From Chitinophagales bacterium (GTDB taxonomy: Bacteria > Bacteroidota > Bacteroidia > Chitinophagales > UBA2359): a stretch of DNA of 35,916 nt. Shown here piece after piece: positions 2,739 through 26,080 of the stretch. Position numbers and translations under genes: made by a program. The stretch is taken from contig JAHDEE010000046.1 in the NCBI GenBank assembly GCA_020629005.1, forward strand, positions 1 to 35,916, read 5' to 3'. The notes below the pieces were generated by a model. The model was not told the DNA's origin. It did not search any database and saw only the letters and a list, made by a program, of their open reading frames with translations. Position 1 is the first letter of the stretch. The number at the start of each line of letters is the position of its first letter.

Positions 2739-5700
2739 ATGACCGTCAAAATACGCCAGCTTTTCCTCATCGTGTTCTTCATCTCAGGCCTGATGTCTGC
2801 TTGTTGCTCTGCCCTTTATGCTCAGGGGATCAATACGGAGTTTGGCCAAAACCGTGTTCAATACCACGACTATGAATGGTCATTCATTGAATCGGCCAAC
2901 TTTAAGTCCTATTTCTATCAAGGTGGTCAGGATTTGGGTAAGTTCGCTTTATCGATAGCAGAGAAGAATTTAAGTTGGATTGAAAAGAAGCTGGAATATA
3001 AGCTGAATAATAAGATCGAGATCATGGTGTACCATAATATCTCGGATCTAAAGCAAACCAACATTGGGCAGGGATTTGAAAACAAGAATACGGGTGGAGT
3101 CACTCCAATCATCGGTAATAAGATTTTTGTCCATTACAACGGAGATCATCGAGACCTGGAGCAGCAGATTAATGAAGGCATAGGCAAAGTTTTCGTTGAA
3201 AACATGGTCTTTGGAGGAAATCTTCAGGAAATCATCCAGAATGCAGTCCTGCTCAACTTGCCTTCCTGGTTTGTTGATGGGCTGGTATCCTATGTAGGTA
3301 GAGAATGGAGCACAAAACATGATGATCGTCTCAGAAAGGGTATTCAGGAAGGCAGTTATGATAATTTCAATAAGTTGCAGAATGAACAGGCAGCTTTTGC
3401 GGGTCACTCCTTGTGGCATTACATAGCGGAAACCTACGGGCCGTCAGCTATTCCGAATTTACTCTATCTCACCAGAATTAATCGCAGTGTTGAGAGTGGC
3501 TTTTTGTTTGTGCTTGGTGGCTCCGTCAAAACCATCATACAAGAGTGGCGAGATTACTATAGCCAGCTTTATGCTTATGATTTGCAAGTGAGAAATGCGT
3601 TTCCTGAAGACAAATTCCTATTCAAGATAAAGCAGAAGAAGGAGGTACAGCTTGGTGAAGTGAAAATGAGCAACAGCGGAAAGTACATCGCCTATGCTGT
3701 CAATGTATTGGGTCAATACAAGGTCTACCTTTATAACACGGAAACCGGCGACAAGAAGGTCTTGCTGAAAAAGGGATTTAAATCTCATACCCAACCAGCT
3801 GATGATGTGTATCCGCTGATCGCCTGGGCGGAGAAAAGCCACAAGCTCTGCATTATCTACGAACGCAGAGATCAAATACTGTTGCAGTATCATGATATTG
3901 ATCGCGATGAGGTATTGAAAGAACCTATTACAAAGTTCCAGCAGGTCTTGGATGTAGCATTTACCGACAATGATAAAAAACTGCTGTTGAGCGCAGTGAG
4001 AAAGGGTCAGTGCGATTTGTTCAGCTACTTTATCCCCAATACAAAAGTGGTACAAATCACCAATGATTTCTACGATGATCTGGCTCCCTCCTACGCCGTT
4101 CTTGCCGGACGACGTGGTGTACTTTTCAGCTCCAACCGACTTGACGACACGCTGCGACGCGAGAAGCTGGATACCATCCTACCAGTGAATCAATTCGATT
4201 TGTTCTTTTTAGATCTCGAGCAAAGCAATAGCTCACAGATCATCCGGCTGACCAACAGTCCTCTAAGCGATGAATGGGCGGCAAAAAAGACCAAGGGCGA
4301 GTACTTCAGTTATCTAAGTGATTACAACGGCATCTACAATACTTATATGGCGGAATTGGACAGCAGCCTCCTACGTACTGATCAGTATGTCTACTTCCAG
4401 GATTCGATGGTTGTGAACCCCAGTTATCCACTAGATAGCTTTCAGCAAATGGGTATCATTGATTCAACCTTACTGAAGGATGTATACCTGTTCGATAGCA
4501 AGCGCTATGCGATGAGCAATTTTGGCAATAATATTCTCTCACAAGATGTTGGTGCTTTGCGCAACCAGATAGTATACGCGACCATGGAAGGCAAACAATA
4601 CAATTTCTACCTCGATCAATTGCCAGATGATCCTGCTTCTTCAGCCCTGGAAGTTGAAAATACCGCCTTTCGCAACCAGATGGAAAATAAGCGAAAAAAT
4701 AGGCGGAAGAAGAAGGACAAAGTAAAGACTAGTAGGCTACCTGGGGCCAAGCCTGCCAACAAGCAACAAAGTGGTTCAAGTGCTCAACAGGAGAAGAAAA
4801 AGAAAGAGAAGCCCTCCAAGCCTGAGTTATCAGTCGCAGATGAAGTTTTATTTCAACCTGGAAAGGAGGATGAAGAAGCAAGTGGAATACCTGACAAGAC
4901 CCTTGAGGAGGAAGCTGATTCGAAACAAGGTCAGCTGGAGGATCATGAGAGTACCGAGCTCTTGAATGAAGATTTCTACTTTCAAACTGAGTTTGACGAT
5001 GTGTATGACCTTACCATAGATCGAGTAAGTGCGGAAGAGCAAGACAATGCAAAACAGGCAAGGGAAGCGGAAAGTCAGTCGAATGCGACAGCCAGCACAA
5101 AAACCGCAGATAATGTAGTTCCCAGCAAAGCGGGTAACAATAGCATCAATCCTTATCCCGATATGGTGGTTGCTCCCAAGTATAAGAGAACCAGAATTCG
5201 CCCCTACGACGTCCGCTTTGGAGTAGACGAGGTAGTTACGCAGTTTGATAACAGCATTCTTTTTACGCCTTATGAAAGCTATACAGCAGGAGGCAATGTG
5301 TACACTTCTCCAAATCTGAATGCCTTGATGAAAGTAGGGGCCACAGATCTCTTTGAGGATTACCGGATCATAGGAGGGTTTCGTCTACCATTGGGTCTGG
5401 ATGGCTCAGAATATTTTTTGGACTACCATTCATTCAAGAGACGTCTGGACAAGCGCTTTATGGCGTATCGCAAAGTAACCAAGGAAGCATACAGGGTTAC
5501 CATCGATCCAGATAGCCCGGGGGAAGAAGTAAATGGACGGATCGTTACCAACCTGATGCAGATGACTTTGAGCTGGCCCTTTGATATTACCAGCAGTTTA
5601 AGAATGCAGGCAGGCTATCGTGGGGATCGAATCTACTTCTCTGCCGAAGACCTTTTCAGTTTGGCTTTGAGGAACAATCAGGAAAACCTATTCAATCTGA

Positions 5701-6491
5701 AATTTGAATTTGTTTACGACAACAGCTATGAAGTGGCTCTCAATATTAGAAATGGGACCAGATTCAAGGTGTACAATGAATTCTATAAGCCCTTCCGCGC
5801 ATACATTAGCGACAATGATCTTGATGTTAGCTTCAAAGACACTGGATGGCTAGGAGTACTAGGTTGCGATTTCAGACACTATCAAAGACTGCACAAACAG
5901 ATTGTTTGGGCATCACGTTTTACAGCAGGCAAATCCTATGGTACTCGCAAGCTGCTCTACTATATGGGTGGAGTGGAAAACTGGCTTCGTGATCCTTCTA
6001 AGCAGTTCAATCAGCAGACTCCGATCAATCAGGATGCTAACTATTTACTACAGACCATTACCGCAAACCTTCGAGGATTCCAGTACAATATCCGAAACGG
6101 AAGCAGTCATGCACTGCTAAACACCGAGGTAAGAGTGCCCTTGTTCAGTTATCTGATCAATTCCCCAATTCGTTCTGAACTGATTAGAAACTTCCAGATA
6201 GTTGGGTTTCTTGACGCAGGAACGGCCTGGGAGGGATGGAGTCCTTTTACCGAAGACAACCGCTACTACACAGTGCAAGTGCCATCTCAATTGGAGATCG
6301 AAAATACCAATGCAGGTGTACCAGTTGTTGCAACTGTGAATTACTTCCGAAATCCAATCGTGTATGGATATGGAGTCGGCTTTCGAACCAAGCTGCTTGG
6401 TTACTTCGTTAAGATGGACATGGCCTATGGATCTGATAGCGGTGCGAAGACTTCACGTACCTGGTTTATCTCTCTCGGAACGGACTTTTAG
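2739..6491 (+). CDS. Giant envelope protein: peptidase-MA-like + beta-propeller + BamA-type barrel
   Basis: A 1250-residue protein with a signal peptide (residues 1-28, ending ALYAQ). Residues 45-290 resemble the peptidase MA-like (gluzincin) fold, ending in LPSWFVDGLVSYVG (about 174-187), a segment conserved in that family. Where an HExxH zinc site would be expected the sequence reads QQINEGIGKVFVEN (about 142-155), so the peptidase is probably inactive. Residues 300-630 contain repeats such as GKYIAYAVN and VLFSSNRLDDT, typical of TolB/PD40 propeller blades. Residues 646-803 are a low-complexity Lys/Glu/Gln-rich linker. From about 817 to the end is a surface-antigen (D15/Omp85-type) barrel, closing in ISLGTDF with the terminal Phe usual for BamA-inserted barrels. 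AAGGA lies 12 nt before the ATG. Such proteins recur in Bacteroidota; the function is unknown, plausibly outer-membrane assembly or export. Confidence 0.8.
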   Translation: MTVKIRQLFLIVFFISGLMSACCSALYAQGINTEFGQNRVQYHDYEWSFIESANFKSYFYQGGQDLGKFALSIAEKNLSWIEKKLEYKLNNKIEIMVYHNISDLKQTNIGQGFENKNTGGVTPIIGNKIFVHYNGDHRDLEQQINEGIGKVFVENMVFGGNLQEIIQNAVLLNLPSWFVDGLVSYVGREWSTKHDDRLRKGIQEGSYDNFNKLQNEQAAFAGHSLWHYIAETYGPSAIPNLLYLTRINRSVESGFLFVLGGSVKTIIQEWRDYYSQLYAYDLQVRNAFPEDKFLFKIKQKKEVQLGEVKMSNSGKYIAYAVNVLGQYKVYLYNTETGDKKVLLKKGFKSHTQPADDVYPLIAWAEKSHKLCIIYERRDQILLQYHDIDRDEVLKEPITKFQQVLDVAFTDNDKKLLLSAVRKGQCDLFSYFIPNTKVVQITNDFYDDLAPSYAVLAGRRGVLFSSNRLDDTLRREKLDTILPVNQFDLFFLDLEQSNSSQIIRLTNSPLSDEWAAKKTKGEYFSYLSDYNGIYNTYMAELDSSLLRTDQYVYFQDSMVVNPSYPLDSFQQMGIIDSTLLKDVYLFDSKRYAMSNFGNNILSQDVGALRNQIVYATMEGKQYNFYLDQLPDDPASSALEVENTAFRNQMENKRKNRRKKKDKVKTSRLPGAKPANKQQSGSSAQQEKKKKEKPSKPELSVADEVLFQPGKEDEEASGIPDKTLEEEADSKQGQLEDHESTELLNEDFYFQTEFDDVYDLTIDRVSAEEQDNAKQAREAESQSNATASTKTADNVVPSKAGNNSINPYPDMVVAPKYKRTRIRPYDVRFGVDEVVTQFDNSILFTPYESYTAGGNVYTSPNLNALMKVGATDLFEDYRIIGGFRLPLGLDGSEYFLDYHSFKRRLDKRFMAYRKVTKEAYRVTIDPDSPGEEVNGRIVTNLMQMTLSWPFDITSSLRMQAGYRGDRIYFSAEDLFSLALRNNQENLFNLKFEFVYDNSYEVALNIRNGTRFKVYNEFYKPFRAYISDNDLDVSFKDTGWLGVLGCDFRHYQRLHKQIVWASRFTAGKSYGTRKLLYYMGGVENWLRDPSKQFNQQTPINQDANYLLQTITANLRGFQYNIRNGSSHALLNTEVRVPLFSYLINSPIRSELIRNFQIVGFLDAGTAWEGWSPFTEDNRYYTVQVPSQLEIENTNAGVPVVATVNYFRNPIVYGYGVGFRTKLLGYFVKMDMAYGSDSGAKTSRTWFISLGTDF

Positions 6492-6494
6492 ACG

Positions 6495-7436
6495 ATGGCT
6501 AAAGTGGGTGAAAGCAGCAGCGAGCGTAGAATCAAGACGATGGAGTCTGGCATTCTCGAGCTGCAGATATGGCTTGAGGATGTTGTGCGCATCGGCTTGG
6601 TGGAGCTCTCACAGCGACAAGGCGATTATTGGAGTCTTAAGGGCAAGCGGATGTGGGATGCCAAATGTAAGGGTTTGGCCAACCTGATCTATATGCTGCC
6701 ACAGGCCTTCCGTCGCCCAAACTGGAAAGAAGAAGCTACAGACATACTGGCCAAACTACATCTCGCCTCAACAGGCTTCCAAAACCGGGATCATCTACCG
6801 GATTTGCTGGTTGAGGACCTAAAGACCTTTATAGGCGTCGACCAAAAGAAAGAGCTGGCAAGGCAGCAACCAGCCATTGCGGATCAATGGCTGGTGCTAG
6901 GCAAAAAGCTTGGGAAAGCAGATAATGTAAACTCACAAACGCTTTGGCTCAAAGGCCGAGAGACAGGGCGATTTGCACAGATATTGGAGTACAAGTTTGG
7001 CTCTGACGATTTTGACACAAAGCTCTTTCCTGGGCAAAGCATTGAGGCCAGCCTGCATTTCCATGCATCAAACTATCCCATGAGAGCGATACTGCAGGAG
7101 GAGCATGCTCCATTTTGTGGCTACCAAAACCCAGTTGGAGTTGAAGCATTTGAGCAATTGCTGAGGGATTATTCTGAGGCCCTAGGGAAAAACCCATTCC
7201 TGTACCGGTATCCAGCGCTTTTCGATAATATCAAGCCCCTCATCTCCACAGACGGAAACTTGTTCCTTGTAGACCAGAATCAACAGATTATTCCGGTGTG
7301 GCCCCGTTTCGCCAGCCAGTTGGAGTTGATGGCGATAAGTGGTGGGAATGCCATCAGCCTATTTGGCGAATGGACAGGGACACAGTTGATACCACTTAGT
7401 GTATTTGAAGGAGAAGGCTGGTTGTCATTGGCCTGA
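6495..7436 (+). CDS. SWIM-protein C-terminal homologue lacking the SWIM zinc finger (MoxR/VWA system partner)
   Basis: A 313-residue cytosolic protein. From residue 14 on it matches, by my recollection of the family, the C-terminal half of SWIM zinc-finger proteins encoded beside DUF5691, MoxR, DUF5682 and VWA genes: GILELQIWLEDVVRIGL, MWDAKCKGLAN, KLHLAS, LPDLLVEDLKTFIGV, DQWLVLGKKL, TLWLKGRETGRFA, LFPGQSIEASLHFH, NPFLYRYPALF and ISLFGEWTGTQLIPLS. Full-length relatives have a further N-terminal module of about 100 or more residues with CxC...CxH; here no such cysteine/histidine set exists and the gene starts exactly where the post-finger region would. It begins 3 nt after the barrel gene, in the same frame, and its last 12 nt overlap the end of the convergent VWA gene. 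Its partnership with the minus-strand cluster is inferred from family association. It could be a true finger-less variant or the survivor of a rearrangement. Confidence 0.72.
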   Translation: MAKVGESSSERRIKTMESGILELQIWLEDVVRIGLVELSQRQGDYWSLKGKRMWDAKCKGLANLIYMLPQAFRRPNWKEEATDILAKLHLASTGFQNRDHLPDLLVEDLKTFIGVDQKKELARQQPAIADQWLVLGKKLGKADNVNSQTLWLKGRETGRFAQILEYKFGSDDFDTKLFPGQSIEASLHFHASNYPMRAILQEEHAPFCGYQNPVGVEAFEQLLRDYSEALGKNPFLYRYPALFDNIKPLISTDGNLFLVDQNQQIIPVWPRFASQLELMAISGGNAISLFGEWTGTQLIPLSVFEGEGWLSLA

Positions 7437-8552
7437 ATTGATCATTCTAAGTTTGCGCCCTTGCAGGGCATCGGCCATCAAGTCTGGAAACTGATCTGGA
7501 GTACAAGCAAAAGATGGGATGCCCATTGCCGCAAATGAGGCAGCATTCGAGGAGGAAAATTGGGGTTTCCCGGTATCATTCAAAGCCAGTAAGCAGATCA
7601 TGTTTACCCCATCTTTTTTCAATTTTCCGGCACGGCCTAACATCTGGTTGAGATCGCCGCCTTCCATTAAATCACTAATCAAAATCAGTATGGTATCCTG
7701 TGGCTTATCCACAATGTTATCCACATAGGCAAGGGCCTGATTTATGTCTGTTCCTCCACCCAAATTCACCCCAAACAAGAGCTCAACGGGATCTCTCAAC
7801 TGCTCTGTCAAATCGGCAACAGAGGTATCAAAGGTCAGCATAGTGGTCTTTATGGCACCTATGGAAGCCATTACTGCTCCAAAAATACTGGCATAGACTA
7901 CAGAGGTAGACATCGATCCGCTTTGGTCAAGACAGAGGATCACATGTTTGAGTTTTCCACTTTTTCTGCCATAGCCATGAAGCTGTTCAGGAATGATCGT
8001 ATTGTATTGCTTTTGATAGTGTTTCAGGTTCTTTAGGATGGTGCGGTGCCAGTGAATTTCAGCAGCTTTAGGTCGGCGATTTCTTACGGAGCGATTCAAT
8101 GCACCACGCAGTGCCTTGTAGGTGGGCATTTTTAGCCGTTTTTGAAGCTTACTCACTACCTGGTTTACCACTTTCCTGGCAGTAGCTCGCGTCTTGGATG
8201 GTATTACATTTTTCAAACCTAGAATGGTAGCCACCAATTCCACATCTGGCTCCAGCTCTTCAAGAATCTCAGGTTCTAGCAGCAATTGATCCAAATGAAG
8301 TCGTTCCATCGCGTCCTTCTGCATGATCCGCACCACTGATTTTGGAAAGTACTTCCTAATATCCCCAAGCCAGCGTCCTACATGTGGCTTACTGGCCGCG
8401 AGTCCTCCAGACTGATCCAGATTAGCATCGTATAAATCAGACAATGCTTTGTCGAGTTTCATTTGTTCCTCATCCAATGGAATATCAACAAAATCATCCG
8501 CATCCTCTCCAAGTAGGAGTCGCCATCGTGTCTGGAGTTTGGCCTGTGTCAT
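7425..8552 (-). CDS. VWA-domain protein of the MoxR/DUF5682 cluster
   Basis: A 375-residue protein with no signal peptide. The C-terminal half is a von Willebrand factor A domain: VILCLDQSGSMS at 204-215 contains the MIDAS DxSxS, with the further metal-binding Thr in GGGTDIN (T268) and Asp in LISDLMEGG (D294). All key MIDAS residues are present, so Mg-dependent ligand or substrate binding is plausible. The N-terminal 170 residues are helical and charged (for example RWLGDIRKYFPKSVVRIM), unlike common VWA partners such as CoxE. In MoxR/VWA pairs the AAA+ ring usually acts on clients recruited by the VWA protein. It is the last gene of the minus-strand cluster, 33 nt after the DUF5682 gene, and its 3' end overlaps the convergent SWIM-like gene by 12 nt. 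Confidence 0.9.
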   Translation of the reverse strand: MTQAKLQTRWRLLLGEDADDFVDIPLDEEQMKLDKALSDLYDANLDQSGGLAASKPHVGRWLGDIRKYFPKSVVRIMQKDAMERLHLDQLLLEPEILEELEPDVELVATILGLKNVIPSKTRATARKVVNQVVSKLQKRLKMPTYKALRGALNRSVRNRRPKAAEIHWHRTILKNLKHYQKQYNTIIPEQLHGYGRKSGKLKHVILCLDQSGSMSTSVVYASIFGAVMASIGAIKTTMLTFDTSVADLTEQLRDPVELLFGVNLGGGTDINQALAYVDNIVDKPQDTILILISDLMEGGDLNQMLGRAGKLKKDGVNMICLLALNDTGKPQFSSSNAASFAAMGIPSFACTPDQFPDLMADALQGRKLRMINSGQ

Positions 8553-8585
8553 TTGTCTTCTTCGTTTTCCTTTTTAATGCTGTGC

Positions 8586-10796
8586 TTATGCTCCATCCAA
8601 TAGAAGCCGCAGTACGGGTATTACCCGTTTTAAGTTGTCTTCATTTACCTGTTTGCGCATTTCTTCTTTTAGCTGCACATGCTTTGCATTCGCTACTCGT
8701 GCAATAGCAGCTCGCTCAGGCTTCGCATATTCGGAGAAAGAGCGGCGCAATAAGGGCAAGACCTGCAAGAAAGTATCTTCGTTCAAATCCTTCAGCCATT
8801 CACTGATCATTCGGATCATCGAAGGATTGTGGATCAATAAAAGTCCCGATCCGTAAAGTAGCCCTTCAAGCCATTTAGCAGATCGTGCTGGATCTGTATG
8901 GGAAGCAAGTTCCAGATTCATGAAACGGGAAAGTTCCTCCTCGCTGATCAGCTTTCGTTCCTGAAGCATGCGGCTAACTACGCCTGCAAGTTTTCTGTGT
9001 ACAGAAACTCCTTCTTTGTGAATCAGATTCAGCAATGTCTGGTTCCAACCGGAGGTGAACTCTTGCAGGTTCAGTAACTGTACTGCATTGTTGACACCGA
9101 TGATCTTTTCAAACATTTGATCGGCCAGTTCATCGTCGATTTGCTTACAAGCTGGCGCTAATCCTATGAAGATTCTGGGGAGCGCGGCATCGATTACATT
9201 CTTCACAAGCGAGGCCTCTGTTTGTCTGACATTTCCGTATCTCATTACGTTTACCAAGGGCAAGACAGCCTGCATCAACTCTGCGACCGGCCCCTGAGTA
9301 GCCACTTGATCTGACAGCCGATTGACTATCTTGAGCAGGAGAGCGGGCAGATTAGCCAGAAATGCTTTTTCAAGTAGTCGGGCCAGCTCCGAGATATCAT
9401 CTCTTGCGGTATTCAATCGTTCATTGACAAAGGCTAAACAAGCGGTCTCCAGGGTATTTCCCCAGGTAGCCGCTTCGATAATTTCCAGCTCGATTTCCGG
9501 ATTCCATCTTATCTTCCATGCCTCCCAGAAGCTGCCCTTTGCACCACCGATAGTAGTCAGACGTCCCCAATGAATATTCAATAGATTAAGCCTGTGAAAA
9601 AACTGGCTAAAAGCCAGGTCCCTTTCTTTGCGAAGATCAAATTTCTCTTGATCCTTTTGTTTGTTGAGCGGACCTGCCTTTTTCCACTTCTTCCCCAGTT
9701 TGTTTATCTCTGCCTGAAGCGGTAGCAAAGGTATGCTGTCGGGCACAGTCCCCATTTTATCGCCAATGATTAATTGCCGATGTATTAGATTTAACAAGGA
9801 ATCATCACGCAGGTTAAATACAGACTTTACCGCCTCCTGCATTTCTTCCAGTCCGGGAACCTCTAGAGCTCGGATGGTTGATAACATTTCGGTCAGTCGC
9901 ACGGCCTCGATCACACTTGCCGGACTCGCATCTATACCCTCGTCTCTTAGCAACGCAGCCGTACGTGACATCCAATGAAGTACCAGCTCATCGCGGTCCA
10001 AATTATACATCAACTCATACCAGGCCGGAGACAGCACGCCGGCCCCGTACCCACTAGTATAGCTGAGTCGTTCGTAGGTCCAGGGAATCCAGGTAGCATG
10101 CACCTTTGTTTTGCGCAATCCTTTCAGCAAATTATTGTCGCTTTTGACGGCAGGCATCTGTTCAAGCGCTGGCGCATGATAGGCGCCGCAGATAACGGCG
10201 ATTCGTTCGTATCCTTCCTTTATCGTTGCTCTTATTCGTTTGCGCATATATGCTTCACGAAGGAGATTGGAAGCCGAGGTTTCGCTGTCTTTTCTCAAAA
10301 GGCCAATCAGTTCAGAAACGTGGGCAAAGATATCTTCTGACTCCCGGCGCTGCTCCACAAGGGACTCCCACCATCTTTCACCTGATTCGAAGCCGGCTTC
10401 TTTGGCAATTTGACTCAGGGGGTCTAGCCCATACTTTTGACCTTCCGTTTGGGATGCATCACTGAGCTTTTGCTTGTAGGACTCATGCCATTGCATGGAA
10501 ATTGGAAGATCTATTAACCTAATTGGGAGGCCTTGATCTAGTCCATATTTGATGGCATTCCACTCAGGGCTAAACTCTGCAAAAGGATAATAGGCCGCTT
10601 TATTGCTGTTCTTGACATCGTACACCAACATGGCTACTGGAGGCACCATCCCCAGCTGTGTCACCATTGCCAGCAGCTCCTCCCCTTCTTCAGTACCTTC
10701 AATCAGAAGAATGTTAGGTGCCCAATTCCGAAGTGCTCGCATCAAGCTTCTACTTGACCCAGGCCCATGATGCCGTATGCCAAAAACGCGTACCAC
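8586..10796 (-). CDS. DUF5682 family protein, TIKI/EreA/TraB-like N-terminus
   Basis: A 736-residue cytosolic protein. The N-terminal 215 residues carry motifs I associate with the TIKI/EreA/ChaN/TraB superfamily: FGIRHHGPGSSRSL at 5-18, ILLIEGTEEG at 29-38, RLIDLP at 93-98, and CGAYHAPAL at 203-211, with paired His and Glu suited to metal or acid-base chemistry. DPLSQIAKEAGFESGERWWE (125-144) is a block characteristic of DUF5682. The remainder is alpha-helical, HEAT-like and rich in Leu. The start is GTG: cac at 10794-10796 overlaps the TAG stop of the MoxR gene by one base, so translation is probably coupled. Family assignment is from memory and fits the neighbours; hydrolytic activity is inferred, the substrate unknown. 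This is the most likely enzymatic output of the cluster besides the ATPase. Confidence 0.82.
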   Translation of the reverse strand: MVRVFGIRHHGPGSSRSLMRALRNWAPNILLIEGTEEGEELLAMVTQLGMVPPVAMLVYDVKNSNKAAYYPFAEFSPEWNAIKYGLDQGLPIRLIDLPISMQWHESYKQKLSDASQTEGQKYGLDPLSQIAKEAGFESGERWWESLVEQRRESEDIFAHVSELIGLLRKDSETSASNLLREAYMRKRIRATIKEGYERIAVICGAYHAPALEQMPAVKSDNNLLKGLRKTKVHATWIPWTYERLSYTSGYGAGVLSPAWYELMYNLDRDELVLHWMSRTAALLRDEGIDASPASVIEAVRLTEMLSTIRALEVPGLEEMQEAVKSVFNLRDDSLLNLIHRQLIIGDKMGTVPDSIPLLPLQAEINKLGKKWKKAGPLNKQKDQEKFDLRKERDLAFSQFFHRLNLLNIHWGRLTTIGGAKGSFWEAWKIRWNPEIELEIIEAATWGNTLETACLAFVNERLNTARDDISELARLLEKAFLANLPALLLKIVNRLSDQVATQGPVAELMQAVLPLVNVMRYGNVRQTEASLVKNVIDAALPRIFIGLAPACKQIDDELADQMFEKIIGVNNAVQLLNLQEFTSGWNQTLLNLIHKEGVSVHRKLAGVVSRMLQERKLISEEELSRFMNLELASHTDPARSAKWLEGLLYGSGLLLIHNPSMIRMISEWLKDLNEDTFLQVLPLLRRSFSEYAKPERAAIARVANAKHVQLKEEMRKQVNEDNLKRVIPVLRLLLDGA

Positions 10797-11872
10797 TAGA
10801 GAATGTCTTTACAAGCCCGATACATGTCAGACCAGTGCTTTCGTTCTTTGACCACTGTTTCGAGATACTCCTGGAAGATCGGCTTGTCCTGCGAAGGATC
10901 TTTGATCACCGCCCCTATGAGTCCACCGGCCACATCAGTGGCATTGAGTTGCCCATCTCCGAAGTGAGTGCTGAGTGATAGGCCGTTAGTCATCACCGAA
11001 ATTGCCTCAGCCGAGCTCAGTGTGGATGATGGGGATTTGATTCTCAATTTCCCATCTTCAGTTTGTCCTGACCGCAGCTCCCGAAAAATGGTGACTAGTC
11101 TTCTAATTTCTTCCACAGCCATTCCAGTGGTAGGAATTTCGAGTGACTTTCCAATACTGTAAACCCGTTGTTTTACAATTTGCACCTCTTCCTCGATACT
11201 CGACGGCAGTGGCAACACAACAGTATTAAAGCGTCTCTGAAGCGCCGCTGAGAGGTCATTGACCCCCTGGTCTCTGTCGTTGGCAGTAGCAATGAGGTTA
11301 AAACCTTTTGCCGCTTGTATTTCTGACCCCAACTCTGGAATGGGCAGTACCTTTTCTGAAAGAATCGTAATCAGCGTATCCTGGACATCTGCTGGTATCC
11401 TTGTCAGCTCTTCCACTCTCACTAGCTTTCCTTCCCTCATGGCAGTCATCACCGGACTGTTTACCAGGGCTTTGTCACTAGGCCCTTTTGCCAGCAACTC
11501 GGCATAATTCCACCCATATCGGATCGCATCTTCAGCGGTGCCGGCTGTTCCCTGTACCAGAAGGGTGGAGTCTCCGGAAATCGCGGCGCTTAGATGCTCG
11601 GAGACCCATGTCTTGGCCGTACCGGGCAATCCCATGAGCAAAAGCGCTCTATCCGTTGCCAACGTTGCAATGGCGATTTCGATTAAACGTGAATTGCCAA
11701 TGTATTTTGGGGTGATCTCTGTGCCATCTTCCAGTTTGGTTCCCATGAGGTATTTCAGGACCGCCCAGGGGGATAGCACCCAGTTTGGTGGTTTCGGATA
11801 CTTGTCCTCCTCCAGAAGTGCCTTTAGCTCCGTTTCGAATTCTTGCTCCGCATGTAATCGTATGGTCTCCAT
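10796..11872 (-). CDS. MoxR-type AAA+ ATPase of the VWA/DUF5682 cluster
   Basis: A 358-residue AAA+ ATPase. Walker A is MGLPGTAKTWVSEHL (GxxGxxKT at 81-88), Walker B is KLVRVEELTRI with the catalytic EE, sensor 1 is LIATANDRDQG, and the arginine finger lies in LSAALQRRFNTVVLP; the helix-2-type insertion region follows the MoxR pattern. All catalytic residues are present, so it should hydrolyse ATP. MoxR proteins form hexameric rings that remodel or activate partner proteins, normally together with a VWA protein, here encoded two genes downstream. ATG at 11870-11872 follows the DUF5691 stop by 6 nt (AAAGAA between them), and its TAG stop shares a base with the GTG start of DUF5682, so the three genes form one transcription unit. 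Compared with RavA or the classical MoxR, the GTAGTAEDAIRYGWNYAEL segment after Walker A is typical of this cluster type. Confidence 0.92.
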   Translation of the reverse strand: METIRLHAEQEFETELKALLEEDKYPKPPNWVLSPWAVLKYLMGTKLEDGTEITPKYIGNSRLIEIAIATLATDRALLLMGLPGTAKTWVSEHLSAAISGDSTLLVQGTAGTAEDAIRYGWNYAELLAKGPSDKALVNSPVMTAMREGKLVRVEELTRIPADVQDTLITILSEKVLPIPELGSEIQAAKGFNLIATANDRDQGVNDLSAALQRRFNTVVLPLPSSIEEEVQIVKQRVYSIGKSLEIPTTGMAVEEIRRLVTIFRELRSGQTEDGKLRIKSPSSTLSSAEAISVMTNGLSLSTHFGDGQLNATDVAGGLIGAVIKDPSQDKPIFQEYLETVVKERKHWSDMYRACKDIL

Positions 11873-11878
11873 TTCTTT

Positions 11879-13360
11879 CTAGGCTTTTATGCAGGTGATC
11901 ATCTCGAATCGATGCTTCCAATTCTTCATCAATTCTGAAATGTAATAGCGCAATTCCGGACTATGGCCGTTTCCATTTTTCCAGGCCTTTTCGTACTCTG
12001 GATACAGTGTTATCGGAAGCAGGTTTCCCAGTGGGCCCATAGAAGTTGCCAGGCGACGAAGGATTAAGCCGTTGACGGGTCTTTGTTGATCTTTATAGAG
12101 CGACTGCAACATGGCACGGGCCGCCCTGGGTTTCAGTCTATATTGATGCTTCATTACCAGACTTACTCCCAAATTTGTCTCAGCGGAAAAGGCATGTGTG
12201 CTAAAATTCTCTGCCAGCAGCTGATCTGCAAGATCGCCATCAAGGAGTTCCATTAATTGCGGAAAGAGATAGGTTGGCATCCCTCTTGTCAAGCCTTGTT
12301 TTTCGAAGAGAAGGCGAAGAATTTTAGTTGCCCAATTTTGGTCCCGATGATTGATTGCCGATAAAGAAAGCCCAGTCAAAAGGGCTTGATTCCATTCCGA
12401 ATTTTGCAATTCATTCAGCAGAATTTTTTCCTTGATTTGCAGCGATTGCAAAAGATCCTCTGGGCTTACTGCTGCGAGCATCCATATAAGGGCCTCCGTT
12501 TTGGTTCCAATGCCATAGGGCTTCAGTTTTTTCTTGTTCAACTGCTCCTTGTCTATTGTTTCATCTGTCAAGGGCAATTGACCAATTTGCAGGCTTTGCT
12601 TTAGCACTCCCTTTACTTCCATAATCTGAGAGAGATACGTCAGCATCCTTTGTGCATAACGGGAGCGAGGCAGGCTGGGTAAAAGCCTACCGGCTTCGGT
12701 ACGGACTTCTTTTCTGCGATGATCAAGCAGGCTATCCAGTAGTGCTTCCTGATTGGGATGCGCAAAGGGAAGTAGCTTAAGACAAGCCGCCAATAGATCA
12801 GCACTATCTTTTGTTTGCACTTCTAACAGCAGGTCCAAAACTCCGTCTGGCTTCGCCTGTGAGAATGCCAGGAAATATCTAAGTCTTTCCTTTCGGTTGC
12901 CTTTGCGCCACTGCTGTACTTTCGGATATAGATTTGTTTGCCAGCTTTCGTTATACTGACTTAACCATTTACCCCTTTCTCCAAGCAGGGTAACATGATC
13001 CAAACCCGGATAGTGTTTCTTACAAAGTTGATCCATTGTACGCGGCAACAAAAAGGGGCGTAAAATGCAAGAAGCATTTAGGGTTTCTCTGTAGAATTCA
13101 TGAATCAGTTCATGCTTCTTGTCTTCCAAAAGCTGGTAGAGAAAAATGGATGATTTTTGACTGATCTGCTGGTAGGATTCCGGGGCTGCTACATTGGGTT
13201 CAGATTCATGTTGTTTTAGTGGAACCAGACCTGCTTTTCTTGCCATGGAAGCACGCGTCATATAGGCCAGGAGCTTGCCTTCGACTGAGGCATTGACAGA
13301 CAAATCCTGAAGTTCTGCGGCCAGCATTTCTTCGTCGATGGGTGAGCGATAAAGTCCCAT
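11879..13360 (-). CDS. DUF5691 family protein (helical repeat), first gene of MoxR/VWA cluster
   Basis: A 493-residue, soluble, almost entirely helical protein without signal or membrane segments. Features I connect to DUF5691 are LLGERGKWLSQYNESW near the middle of the N-terminal half, the segment WRKGNRKERLRYF, and the repeat-like LLDSLLDHRRKEVRTEAGRLLPSLPRSRYAQRM, which reads like HEAT repeats. The frame opens with GTG at 13363 followed directly by ATG at 13358-13360; I use the ATG. It is 6 nt upstream of the MoxR gene and 79 nt downstream of bioY on the same strand, with no visible terminator between. No catalytic motif is seen; a scaffold or adaptor role for the ATPase is inference. The DUF assignment is from memory, supported by the co-encoded DUF5682, MoxR and VWA genes. 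Confidence 0.78.
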   Translation of the reverse strand: MGLYRSPIDEEMLAAELQDLSVNASVEGKLLAYMTRASMARKAGLVPLKQHESEPNVAAPESYQQISQKSSIFLYQLLEDKKHELIHEFYRETLNASCILRPFLLPRTMDQLCKKHYPGLDHVTLLGERGKWLSQYNESWQTNLYPKVQQWRKGNRKERLRYFLAFSQAKPDGVLDLLLEVQTKDSADLLAACLKLLPFAHPNQEALLDSLLDHRRKEVRTEAGRLLPSLPRSRYAQRMLTYLSQIMEVKGVLKQSLQIGQLPLTDETIDKEQLNKKKLKPYGIGTKTEALIWMLAAVSPEDLLQSLQIKEKILLNELQNSEWNQALLTGLSLSAINHRDQNWATKILRLLFEKQGLTRGMPTYLFPQLMELLDGDLADQLLAENFSTHAFSAETNLGVSLVMKHQYRLKPRAARAMLQSLYKDQQRPVNGLILRRLATSMGPLGNLLPITLYPEYEKAWKNGNGHSPELRYYISELMKNWKHRFEMITCIKA

Positions 13361-13442
13361 CACCAGGGTCTCTTCTATGTTCTTTTCTGACTTAATGGGA
13401 TTGTCATGATTTGCATTCCAATTGCCCTTCCGGCTCTCGATG

Positions 13443-14097: not shown

Positions 14098-14320
14098 TGC
14101 GGCGGACTGCCAGTGAAAAATAGCCCCGGGCGAAACGGTATGAAGTGCTGCGACAGCGTGGTGACTGGCAGCCAATGGTGGCTCCGACCTTAGGAGGAGA
14201 CGCCAGTGGCTGACCAGGAACAGCTGGCGAAGTGCTGAATAATAGTGGAGCACGGGGAGACCGTTGGCGCGCTGGAAACAGATTCGCTCCTAAAAAAATC
14301 AAATTTACTCTTTCCCGGCT
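14098..14320 (+). repeat. Dispersed structured repeat, copy A
   Basis: This segment aligns by eye, over its full length and in opposite orientation, with 26081-26294. Shared blocks in order are AATAGCC, GTGGTGACTG, a TGGCTC block, a GGAGAC-like block, CAGGAACA, and a 3' end reading TTCGCTCC then an A-rich stretch and AATCAA. Over the best 63-nt ungapped block I count about 44 identities. CTGCCAGT (14107-14114) can pair with ACTGGCAG (14164-14171); a small hairpin GCTG-CGA-CAGC lies at 14147-14157. The spacing from the start to CGCTCC is about 190 nt here and 187 nt in the other copy. It could be a small RNA, a MITE-like or REP-like element, or a degenerate relic; no gene is recognised in it. 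Confidence 0.6.
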
Positions 14321-21985: not shown

Positions 21986-24900
21986 TTATTTGATAATTGT
22001 GATTTGTCGGGTGCTACTGTGCTCCGAACCAAGCACCTTCAACAGATAAGTCCCTTGAATCAAATCCTCGACCCAAATTTCCGTGGAAGAAATGCTAAGT
22101 CCGCCTTGCTTCACCAGTTTACCAGTGATGTCAAACAACTGGTAGCTATCGTATCCACCTCCAGCAGTATCCAAATAAATCATACTAGAAGCAGGATTCG
22201 GATAGAAAGAAATTTGCTTGCCAGGCAAAATCGTACCCTCATTATTCGTCGGTTCCTCAACAAAGATCGGCTGTGGCTCATTCTTCGAAGTAATGGCACG
22301 CACGTTCTTGATGCTGAATTTGTATTCTGAGTTTTTCTTACCAGCAATATCATCAATCATTCCGTGGATAGCGCATACCGGGCCAAATCCTGTTTGATCA
22401 GATTGGTCATTTCTGGTGATGGCAATATCAACCTCGTAACTAGACTGTAACAAGTATTCGAAAGTCAGCAAATTAACCCCTTCTTCTCCTACCCAGGAGT
22501 CGCCAAAGTCAACAAAGAAAGTCCCAGGCACAAACTCAATATTTTCAAAACTCACTGTGAAAGCCAATCCATAGGTATTAGAAGCCGGAATGCTCTCCGT
22601 ACCAAGTCGTACCGGAAGGTCAAGGAACATCCCTGAGCTCAAAATATCTGCAGGCTCCTCCAGAAACAATTGTGGGTCATCTTCAGTGGCCTCCATAGCA
22701 TCCTCGGTCTTTCCATGAGTCAGGCCATAGTTCTCAGTGATAGCCAACTGATCTGACATTGTCACCTGCCCATCACCATCACAGTCTGCATGGTTGTAAT
22801 TGACTTCATCATCAAAGTATCCTTCCCAGCAGTCGGCTTCAAATCCTTGCCATTCAGTAGATGTCTCCGCTCTTGCAGGCCCGCTAGTACCATAGACAAG
22901 TCCCAGATTCAGCAGATCAAAGTTGTTGGCAATGCCATCATTGTTCGCATCTCCAGGCCATACTTCCTCTGTACAAGCTGGCCCAGCCACCGTTATCGTA
23001 ATACCTGCTTCGTCGTCTTCACTTTGGTCGCCATCATCGTTATTAGGCTCAGAGTCAAAATCTGCTGCGCCGTCAACATCACTGTATTTGATGATTTCAG
23101 CCAATATCTGGTGATCACCAGCTTCAGCAGCTCCAAGTGTTAGCGTCAGGGTTTCAGGCTCATTGCGTTTCACCTCTCCTACATTCCAGACCGACTCAGC
23201 CGAAGCAAACAAACCCTCGCTCGCAATCGCTCCAATGAAGGCAAGCCCTTCAGGAAGTGCAATTGAAACTTCAACAGCATCCGCGTCGTGCATATATTCA
23301 TTCGTGATTTCCAATACCACCTCGAATTGCTCATCAAGTAAATAGCTTTCTGGAACAGCAGTAATTTCCAAGGCAAGATCTACTATCGGAGTATCATTTA
23401 AGGCATTCACCCAAACCTCTGCTCCGGCTTCATCATCTTCTATATGCTGGCCATCATCATTGTTTGGCGTCGAATCCACATCCTGCTGGTCAGCGGCAAT
23501 TACCTGAGCCTCAAAGTAGAATATCCCACCATCGTATGGCATTTGGATACGCTCCAGGAAGCGATAGCCTCCTGCCTGAATCTCTCCAACATCCCAGATT
23601 CCTGTCACAGGATCGTAGTCCCACTCATCACTGGAAACAAATGCATATCCAGGATCAACAGGGTAGTACACCTGCACGCCAGTCGCATCTGTCAAACTAT
23701 TGTTATAAAGCGTCAGTGCAGAGTAGGTATTATCTCCGGCATAGTCATCACCTGAATGCGCTTCCATACTTAGTTCAAGATCTATCACACCTGCTGGTGG
23801 ACCACCACCTCCAACTTGTAGTAGGACACCTGCCTCGTCATCTTCCGATTGATCTCCATCGTCATTATGCGGCTCAGAGTCGATATCATTCTGACCGGCT
23901 TCAGTCACTTGAAAGCTCCATGGAAGAGCTCCCAAGGCCATTCCGTAAACCATCATTGTACCACCCAAGGCCCGAGTTTCGCCAGCTGCAAGCAAAGCAA
24001 TGTCTTTGTAGAGAATGTACTCATTCATCTCAAATTCGAAGTCGCCCATCACATATTGGAGATCAGTAGAAAGATCAGAACGCACCTGTACGCTCGTAGC
24101 ATCATCTGGCCCCAGGTTCGTAACGATCAACTCAAAGCCAAACTCCTCCCCTTCTTCAGGTTGCATATCACTCACTACAAACTCCACTTCCAGATCTATC
24201 ACATACTCGACCGTCTCAAACTCTTCAGTGATCACCACCTCATCATCCTCAAAACCGAAAGAATACCACTCAGGACTGGAGTCCAAATCAGGCGTTTCAC
24301 AAGCGGAAACTTTTACTATATAGGTATTCAGACCTGACTCCATTTGAGCTTGAATCTCGCAGGCAATGCTTGCACCAGCAGCTAGGCTCTCTATGCTCCA
24401 GCTATCGCCAGAAAGTGTTGCTCCCGGACTATTTGCAGTTTCGTATATAAGGTTCTCGATGTTTGGAATATCTAAATCCACTACTATGCCTGTTGCATCG
24501 ATGGTACCTTCATTACTCACTACAATATTGTAGCTGGCAAATTGCTCACCAGTCTGGTAGTCAATATTGAAGTCTACTTCCAAATCAGCATAGCTTCCAG
24601 CCGGTTGCACGACCATGGTCACCAATCGCTCATCGTTTTCTGAAGAAGGGGTTCCAAAAATATGATTGGCTGGACTAGAATTAACATCCGTCTGATCACA
24701 AGTATGCACCTGACTTTCCACCACATGAGCACCAACATCTCCTGCCACAGCATTTACAACAAGCTCGGCAACCTCACCGACGCCTAAGTCACCGTGGTAC
24801 CAGATTCCAGTACCAGGACTAAAGTTACCCTCACTGCTTTGCAGTATAGAGCCTGCCGGCACAAATGTCTCAACAGAAACTCCAGTAGCCGCTTCAGGTC

Positions 24901-25894
24901 CGCCATTGGTCAACAAAATCTTGTACTGGAATGGCTCTCCACTTACAGCAGTGATATGCTCCGGTATCGTCATCAACAACAGATCAACAGTCCCATCTTC
25001 ATTGCCGCTCTCCACAAAAAACACTGTACCACACTCATCATCTTCCGACTGATCTCCATCATCATTGTTTGGCGTCGAGTCTATATCTTGTATATTCTCA
25101 TTCTCGCTCCAAGACTCCACTTCGGCAGTTATCTGAGGGCTATCATCAACCGTTGCAACCACTGTTATGCTAAGGTATTCAGTCGCTCCCACCATCATTT
25201 CTCCAGCGTTCCAAATGTCATTCATTACAACATACTGACCTGTACTCGTCTCACTGGAAACAAAAGTAAGTCCTTCGGGAATAGTATGCGCAACATTCAC
25301 GCCATATGCCGCATCAGGCCCTTGATTCGTCAACTCAAAAGTGTAAGTCACCTGATCACCAACCGCAATCGTTGTGGCAGAGATAGTTACGTCCAGTTCG
25401 AGATCAATAGCAGTTCCCCAGGACTCAACCTGAACTCCAACTACAGCCTCATCATCTTCGTCCTGGTTTCCATCATCATTGTTCGGCACACTGTCAATAT
25501 CATCCTCAATTGCACTTATTACTTCGGCATACAGTTCCAGGCTTCCCTCAGCATCAGCAGTTAGTGTCACATCCGTCTGCCGAGACTCGCCAGCCGCCAA
25601 ATTACTTTCAGAAAACTGCAATAAGTGATTCACTACATCATAGACACCGCTTGTAGCAGACACATAGGTAACCATTTCGGGGAGATAAAGGGCTACTTCT
25701 TGTGCTTCGGCATCTGAAGGTCCATTATTGCTAAGGACCAAACTTAGGGTAAAGGTATCACCCTGAGTTACAAAGGTCACATCGGACTCCATTTGTAACT
25801 CCAGGTCAATTGTTTGTGCCTCTATGCTACCTTGGGTAAATAGTAGCGTTAAGAAGAGGCTTAGGGTGTAAAGGCTAAATCTAAATTTTCTCAT
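21986..25894 (-). CDS. Secreted DUF11-repeat protein with dockerin-like and cohesin-like domains and T9SS sorting tail
   Basis: The start MRKFRFSLYTLSLFLTLLF (ATG 25892-25894) gives a normal signal peptide ending IEAQ; the frame stays open to 25966. The 1302 residues hold seven DUF11/CARDB-like immunoglobulin-fold repeats of about 130 residues each (about 27-970), most starting IDLEL and several with NNGPSDA/NQGPDAA-type motifs. Five repeats end with a linker close to DSTPNNDDGDQSEDDE; repeats three and four have diverged linkers. Residues 974-1075 carry two dockerin-like EF-hands, GDANNDGIANNFD and DCDGDGQVTMSD. Residues 1076-1227 look cohesin-like. The last 75 residues (ISFYPNPASSMIYLD to the end) are a type A T9SS sorting domain, so the protein should be exported and anchored or released at the surface. 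Asp/Glu-rich linkers suggest calcium binding. Function is unknown; an adhesin or surface matrix role is plausible. Confidence 0.85.
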   Translation of the reverse strand: MRKFRFSLYTLSLFLTLLFTQGSIEAQTIDLELQMESDVTFVTQGDTFTLSLVLSNNGPSDAEAQEVALYLPEMVTYVSATSGVYDVVNHLLQFSESNLAAGESRQTDVTLTADAEGSLELYAEVISAIEDDIDSVPNNDDGNQDEDDEAVVGVQVESWGTAIDLELDVTISATTIAVGDQVTYTFELTNQGPDAAYGVNVAHTIPEGLTFVSSETSTGQYVVMNDIWNAGEMMVGATEYLSITVVATVDDSPQITAEVESWSENENIQDIDSTPNNDDGDQSEDDECGTVFFVESGNEDGTVDLLLMTIPEHITAVSGEPFQYKILLTNGGPEAATGVSVETFVPAGSILQSSEGNFSPGTGIWYHGDLGVGEVAELVVNAVAGDVGAHVVESQVHTCDQTDVNSSPANHIFGTPSSENDERLVTMVVQPAGSYADLEVDFNIDYQTGEQFASYNIVVSNEGTIDATGIVVDLDIPNIENLIYETANSPGATLSGDSWSIESLAAGASIACEIQAQMESGLNTYIVKVSACETPDLDSSPEWYSFGFEDDEVVITEEFETVEYVIDLEVEFVVSDMQPEEGEEFGFELIVTNLGPDDATSVQVRSDLSTDLQYVMGDFEFEMNEYILYKDIALLAAGETRALGGTMMVYGMALGALPWSFQVTEAGQNDIDSEPHNDDGDQSEDDEAGVLLQVGGGGPPAGVIDLELSMEAHSGDDYAGDNTYSALTLYNNSLTDATGVQVYYPVDPGYAFVSSDEWDYDPVTGIWDVGEIQAGGYRFLERIQMPYDGGIFYFEAQVIAADQQDVDSTPNNDDGQHIEDDEAGAEVWVNALNDTPIVDLALEITAVPESYLLDEQFEVVLEITNEYMHDADAVEVSIALPEGLAFIGAIASEGLFASAESVWNVGEVKRNEPETLTLTLGAAEAGDHQILAEIIKYSDVDGAADFDSEPNNDDGDQSEDDEAGITITVAGPACTEEVWPGDANNDGIANNFDLLNLGLVYGTSGPARAETSTEWQGFEADCWEGYFDDEVNYNHADCDGDGQVTMSDQLAITENYGLTHGKTEDAMEATEDDPQLFLEEPADILSSGMFLDLPVRLGTESIPASNTYGLAFTVSFENIEFVPGTFFVDFGDSWVGEEGVNLLTFEYLLQSSYEVDIAITRNDQSDQTGFGPVCAIHGMIDDIAGKKNSEYKFSIKNVRAITSKNEPQPIFVEEPTNNEGTILPGKQISFYPNPASSMIYLDTAGGGYDSYQLFDITGKLVKQGGLSISSTEIWVEDLIQGTYLLKVLGSEHSSTRQITIIK

Positions 25895-26080
25895 AACATT
25901 CAATTTGTTCTGCATCGCTATCAACAGTACAAATATGCCTCCTATCCCCAAATTCAGCATGTACAATTTTCAGGCAAAGAATCACAAAACATAACCCCAC
26001 ACAAACCTTTATCATTGATTTACAGCGAATTATCACACACACTGGTATCAAAACAAGTCTCCAAAACAGCTCCACACCCC

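Follow-up and report, generated by a model that had tools for sequence, protein, structure and literature searches.

What is the function of a five-gene bacterial cluster that recurs in many phyla, and how much of it can a bacterium discard? The question is raised by a 35,916-nt stretch of DNA from a Chitinophagales bacterium (GenBank contig JAHDEE010000046.1), here called the window. It is one of 456 contigs, C216, in a 6.9 Mb genome (G000) that is 97% complete. Positions 6495-13363 hold four minus-strand genes, coding for a DUF5691 protein, a MoxR ATPase, a DUF5682 protein and a VWA_CoxE protein, together with a convergent plus-strand gene for a partner that elsewhere carries a SWIM zinc finger. 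The cluster is a derived, rearranged form of a five-gene machine. It is a relative of ddrTUVWX of Deinococcus and yehLMPQ of Escherichia coli, and hence not nameless. The explanation we favor, at a probability of about one half, is a remodelling machine for stress or DNA damage, in which MoxR and the VWA protein work on or gate a TIKI-like DUF5682 protein and the SWIM/OB and DUF5691 proteins serve as adaptors.

The usual form of the cluster is seen in a neighborhood survey of 80 named DUF5682 loci from Bacteroidota, Cyanobacteriota, Chloroflexota, Pseudomonadota, Planctomycetota, Verrucomicrobiota and others. The order SWIM, DUF5691, MoxR, DUF5682, VWA, all on one strand, occurs in 45 of the 80, and in three further loci a single gene codes for SWIM and DUF5691 as a fusion. 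A sequence-only reading of the window had stated that the five families co-occur, normally co-directional with the SWIM gene at one end. Both statements are borne out, the co-occurrence being far above chance. That reading was also right to call the arrangement in the window unusual. All five families are present, although of the SWIM partner only the C-terminal part is encoded. Four of the genes keep their order, whereas the SWIM-type gene is convergent and stands at the opposite end; an inverted SWIM gene is found in none of the 80 loci. Every complete partner in the survey has the finger motif CxCxnCxH.

The four minus-strand genes belong to the families first proposed for them, with Pfam E-values of 3e-44 (VWA_CoxE), 3e-217 (DUF5682), 4e-37 (AAA_5) and 1e-53 (DUF5691). 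Their open reading frames are stranded and spaced as described, with 33 nt between VWA and DUF5682, a 1-nt overlap between DUF5682 and MoxR, and 6 nt between MoxR and DUF5691. The start of DUF5691 is uncertain, in that both the open frame here and its relative from a congener (G007) extend further upstream. At the other end, the reading frames of the VWA gene and the plus-strand gene overlap by 12 nt. A Pfam search with the 313-residue plus-strand protein gave no match. Its full length aligns with the C-terminal 310 or so residues of full-length SWIM partners in relatives, which agrees with its identification as the C-terminal part of the fifth partner. The SWIM finger and a charged linker, about 130-160 N-terminal residues, are missing from it, and likewise from the protein of G007.

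The start codon of the SWIM-less gene lies 3 nt past the stop (6491) of a gene for an outer-membrane protein (OMP). Since this upstream gene is intact, with 1250 codons, the truncation is not an effect of a contig end. The OMP gene is present in 19 of 20 genomes of the family, and outside this genus it has other genes downstream wherever the downstream region can be read. The congener G007 has the identical truncation behind the same OMP gene, 1 nt past its stop, on contig C199; its contig C281 carries VWA-DUF5682-MoxR-DUF5691-BioY in the order of the window. Both contigs end at the point where the two would join. The SWIM-less proteins of the two genomes are 56% identical, and their genes differ by 0.36, 0.22 and 0.63 changes at the first, second and third codon positions. 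The four other genes of the cluster also differ mostly at third positions. Synonymous divergence (dS) between the two genomes is saturated, so that no dN/dS is given, and it is the dominance of third-position changes that argues for purifying selection on the SWIM-less gene in the genus. The shared truncation and junction, taken with this selection, show that the arrangement is no assembly artefact. Because the finger is lost and the gene is still selected, the finger would be dispensable for whatever function remains under selection.

A search of G000 and G007 for the missing SWIM half turned up only SWIM proteins of different kinds, which do not match it; no second SWIM partner was found in G007. 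The genome of the window does hold a second, paralogous cluster on contig C449 (L006 5175-15717). It is complete and co-directional, with an inserted DUF4132 gene: SWIM-DUF5691-MoxR-DUF4132-DUF5682-VWA. In a tree of DUF5682 proteins, the window copy and those of G007 and G008 group together within a clade of Saprospirales and Hymenobacter, many of whose DUF5682 genes are solitary; the C449 copy sits in a different clade. Cluster members are on separate contigs or far apart in genomes G036 and G083. Judged from the DUF5682 tree, the window locus may be an intermediate in the break-up of the operon. The standalone genes (L077, L086, L104, L127 and others) are mostly from Saprospirales, some from cyanobacteria, and the other four genes are not seen within up to 10 kb on each side of them.

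SWIM-less partners are also present in genomes G504 and G073, where they apparently arose independently of the one in the window. Two are encoded in other families of the class, at L153 9764-10717 (317 residues) and L154 9627-10574 (315 residues). Both are separated from the other cluster genes, and the L154 gene lies behind an RNase III-like gene. A search of viral contigs with the SWIM-less protein of the window gave no match.

The best described relative of the cluster is in Deinococcus deserti, where Deide_18730-Deide_18690 form the five-gene operon ddrTUVWX, which begins with a SWIM zinc finger gene and ends with one for a VWA CoxE-like protein (PMC5552922). The SWIM gene is induced more than 10-fold by radiation in an IrrE/DdrO-dependent manner and has a radiation/desiccation response motif (RDRM) upstream (PMC5552922). 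This is the same five-gene set as in the window by description; sequence homology was tested on Deinococcus taeanensis. The latter has the complete SWIM-DUF5691-MoxR-DUF5682-VWA cluster, with identities to the window of 66% (MoxR), 48% (VWA) and 35% (DUF5682). One RDRM string has no site in the D. taeanensis stretch (L218), and a looser, RDRM-like palindrome has one site in 22 kb, 36 nt before the SWIM start. Chance alone would give 0.45 such sites in the stretch as a whole, so it is the position that counts. The SWIM protein of ddrTUVWX is complete, first, co-directional and under IrrE/DdrO control, whereas that of the window lacks the finger and is convergent at the other end.

In E. coli, yehLMPQ includes homologues of MoxR, DUF5682 and VWA that are 39%, 24% and 31% identical to the window proteins. 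The K-12 run yehI-yehK-yehL-yehM-yehP-yehQ keeps the order of these three genes and has a SWIM protein. It differs in that no DUF5691 gene is annotated, YehQ comes last and DUF4132 genes lie upstream; the C-terminal part of YehQ bears no recognisable relation to the window partner. The adjoining genes are of the DUF4132/MolR type, and MolR has been described in the LexA regulon (PMC8533742). At L038 4448-4467, 8 nt upstream of yehF, with which the co-directional yeh run begins, is a LexA-type CTG-N10-CAG site, although this is a loose pattern with many occurrences. Strict LexA-type patterns gave nothing convincing in the yeh region.

The MoxR protein of the window is 39% identical to YehL over 349 residues, compared with 18% to RavA over 153 residues. 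By this measure it belongs to the YehL subfamily, named in PMC3893208, and not to that of RavA. The sequence-only reading credited it with intact Walker and sensor motifs. Walker A, sensor 1 (N198) and an arginine pair (R213-R214) are indeed intact; Walker B, however, is Glu-Glu in all 66 relatives, YehL included, and the position expected for sensor 2 has no arginine, both being family features. The complete metal-ion-dependent adhesion site (MIDAS) reported for the VWA protein can be read residue by residue (D209-x-S-x-S, T268, D294). An example of how such a pair can act is NorQD, in which a MoxR ring turns its VWA partner and remodels a client so that metal can be inserted (PMC13036017). 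Of the relatives with a solved structure, NorQ is one of the closest to the window MoxR. NorQD and RavA-ViaA resemble the window in joining an AAA+ MoxR ring with a VWA co-chaperone, but their MoxR proteins are of other subfamilies and they lack DUF5682, DUF5691 and the SWIM partner.

The client may be the DUF5682 protein, which the sequence-only reading called a putative enzyme. This can be refined, on moderate evidence, to a protein whose N-terminal domain is probably TraB/TIKI-like. The predicted structure, with a predicted local distance difference test score (pLDDT) of 85, has an alpha/beta N-terminal domain followed by a helical solenoid. A complex IV subunit of Tetrahymena matches residues 1-219 with Z 9.1 and a root-mean-square deviation of 4.8 over 181-190 aligned residues, and the Tetrahymena supercomplex includes a TraB-family subunit (PMC10060162). 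Pfam TraB is matched by 3 of 21 DUF5682 members, at best with E 4e-4. The positions H9, E33, R180 and H207 are kept in 91-92 of 92 DUF5682 sequences; together with H10 they form the putative active-site set. Their order and spacing resemble those of TraB (H57, E83, R249, H274) and of the catalytic set described for a TIKI endopeptidase (PMC6254334). The likeness to the TraB/TIKI/Ere superfamily lies in GxxH, Glu, Arg and GAxH motifs at similar spacing, in the weak Pfam matches and in one structural neighbor, while the long C-terminal solenoid is a difference. The first glutamate of the RRSP 2His/2Glu set is missing in DUF5682, and it is missing in the TraB alignment too. A search of PDB sequences with DUF5682 gave no credible match. 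Long helical matches to the C-terminal half were set aside as a common solenoid shape. No paper naming DUF5682 or DUF5691 was found in the literature search.

Coordinates of the cluster, of the adjoining gene and of fused partners in relatives
Feature	Length (aa)	Position	Strand	Basis or remark
SWIM-less partner (C-terminal part only)	313	6495..7436	+	Alignment, codon-position pattern, model
VWA_CoxE protein, complete MIDAS	375	7425..8552	-	Pfam; 31% identity to E. coli YehP over 372 aa
DUF5682: TraB/TIKI-like (probable) N-terminal domain (about 1-270), C-terminal helical solenoid	736	8586..10796	-	Pfam, model
MoxR AAA+ ATPase, YehL subfamily	358	10796..11872	-	Pfam; 39% to YehL
DUF5691 helical protein, putative adaptor/scaffold	494	11879..13363	-	Pfam; start may be upstream of 13363
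TolB-like propeller + outer-membrane barrel protein (OMP)	1250	2739..6491	+	Adjoins SWIM-less gene on its upstream side
SWIM-DUF5691 fusions	about 970-990	L079 5794-8727; L114 5634-8618; L152 6025-8931		

Two features lie outside the cluster. A dispersed intergenic repeat of this genus, with the core CATACCGCTTCGCCCG, is found at 14124-14142 of the window and at L040 67-82. Exact copies number four in the window's own genome, three in G007 and none in G008; one of the G007 copies is at the end of the contig that carries the SWIM-less gene. Further on, positions 21986-25966 encode a secreted protein of 1326 residues with seven DUF11 repeats and a sorting tail of the Por (type IX) secretion system.

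These parts suggest how the machine might work. The YehL-type MoxR would form an ATP-driven ring, and the VWA protein, by homology, would insert into it and transmit force as NorD does with NorQ. DUF5682 would be the client or effector, which MoxR-VWA would gate or load; its N-terminal domain is a putative TraB/TIKI-like hydrolase, on the strength of a probable fold and of conserved residues. An adaptor arm would be made up of DUF5691 and the SWIM/OB protein, as the gene fusion in three relatives suggests, and would probably touch nucleic acid or nucleoprotein. The model of the SWIM-less protein (pLDDT 90) has a helical region and two OB-like beta barrels. The system would serve in stress, most likely DNA damage; the induction data from Deinococcus point to that form of stress, and its role in the window may be the same. 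In this genus a SWIM-less adaptor would be expressed behind the OMP gene, and the second, complete cluster of the genome may keep the original role.

Several points weigh against this reading. No activity or complex has been shown for any homologue. Induction by radiation is known from Deinococcus alone, and no DNA-damage motif was identified in the window. The matched Tetrahymena chain is probably the TraB-family subunit, although this could not be confirmed: aligning TraB with PDB sequences gave no match, so the chain cannot be named by sequence. By hhalign, the N-terminal part of DUF5682 shows no significant similarity to alignments of TraB or of erythromycin esterases, and for this reason TIKI membership is probable, not proven. 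Foldseek found no match with E < 0.001 for the DUF5682 model, nor for that of the SWIM-less protein. The best structural neighbors of the latter, tandem OB folds of the HIN and RPA type, are weak; because they reach only Z 6-6.7, nucleic-acid binding cannot be asserted for this protein. A bolder version of the favored explanation is possible but less probable: YehL-type MoxR-VWA might gate a TIKI-type hydrolase, DUF5682, recruited by the OB/SWIM adaptor to damaged DNA or to proteins bound there. This would be an ATP-controlled DNA-damage hydrolase of many phyla, E. coli included, which in the genus of the window has lost the finger and become coupled to the OMP gene.

The sequence-only reading spoke of a stress or conflict response. 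Stress gains from the ddrTUVWX literature (PMC5552922), whereas conflict is weakened. It is distinctly unlikely that the cluster is an anti-phage or other conflict system of a further MoxR-vWA type, with DUF5682 as the effector. Ternary MoxR-vWA conflict systems do exist (Kaur et al. 2020, PMC7159879) and likewise consist of a MoxR and vWA core with an extra component; DUF5682 occurs in 31 plasmid records and one phage record, and PHROGs has relatives of both VWA and DUF5682. The third component of those systems, however, is VMAP, iSTAND, FtsH or a beta-propeller, none of which is among the Pfam matches here, and the paper names neither SWIM nor DUF56xx. The window MoxR scores 25.7 for bpMoxR, below the cut-off of 27. 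A Pfam scan of the window proteins showed no effector-associated domain (EAD) or variable effector domain, and PADLOC returned one weak AAA match (E 0.0065). Moreover, yehM is present in 5284 of 5426 E. coli genomes (97%) and yehL in 5171, nearly always on the chromosome. The DUF5682 tree tracks phyla, with 16 label changes against 36.5 when shuffled, and relatives have cluster members dispersed around the genome. The near-ubiquity in E. coli, the agreement of the tree with phyla, the dispersal of the genes and the lack of PADLOC matches argue together against mobile defense and for a chromosomal stress function. The sole phage record, MT835988.1, is an unannotated 14 kb sequence from a human fecal sample, with a relative of 29% identity at 10647-12755.

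A maturation chaperone of the NorQD/CoxDE kind, in which MoxR-VWA would insert metal into, or activate, DUF5682 or another metalloenzyme with no link to DNA, is possible but rather unlikely. It would suit the CoxE family of the VWA protein, the kinship of MoxR with NorQ, the client remodelling by NorQD and the link of the E. coli neighbor MolR to molybdate. The induction in D. deserti, however, is by radiation, and no metalloenzyme or metal transporter constantly adjoins the cluster, though neighbors were not surveyed systematically. Nor and Cox systems are not known to include adaptors of the SWIM or OB-like type. Least probable is that the cluster is decaying, the SWIM fragment being a relic of rearrangement while the C449 paralogue does the work. 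The finger is gone, the order broken and a second cluster intact in the same genome, but G007 conserves all five frames, each of them open, and no second SWIM partner was found in it. Both the third-position bias in all five genes and the SWIM-less partners of G504 and G073 also count against decay.

The five-gene machine is widespread, in many phyla and in about 95-97% of E. coli genomes, yet almost unstudied. When what is known of yehLMPQ, of ddrTUVWX and of MoxR-vWA systems is brought together, both a function in DNA damage and an active site become testable in a common laboratory strain. The window, with a naturally occurring form that is relocated and SWIM-less, indicates which part the core machine can do without.

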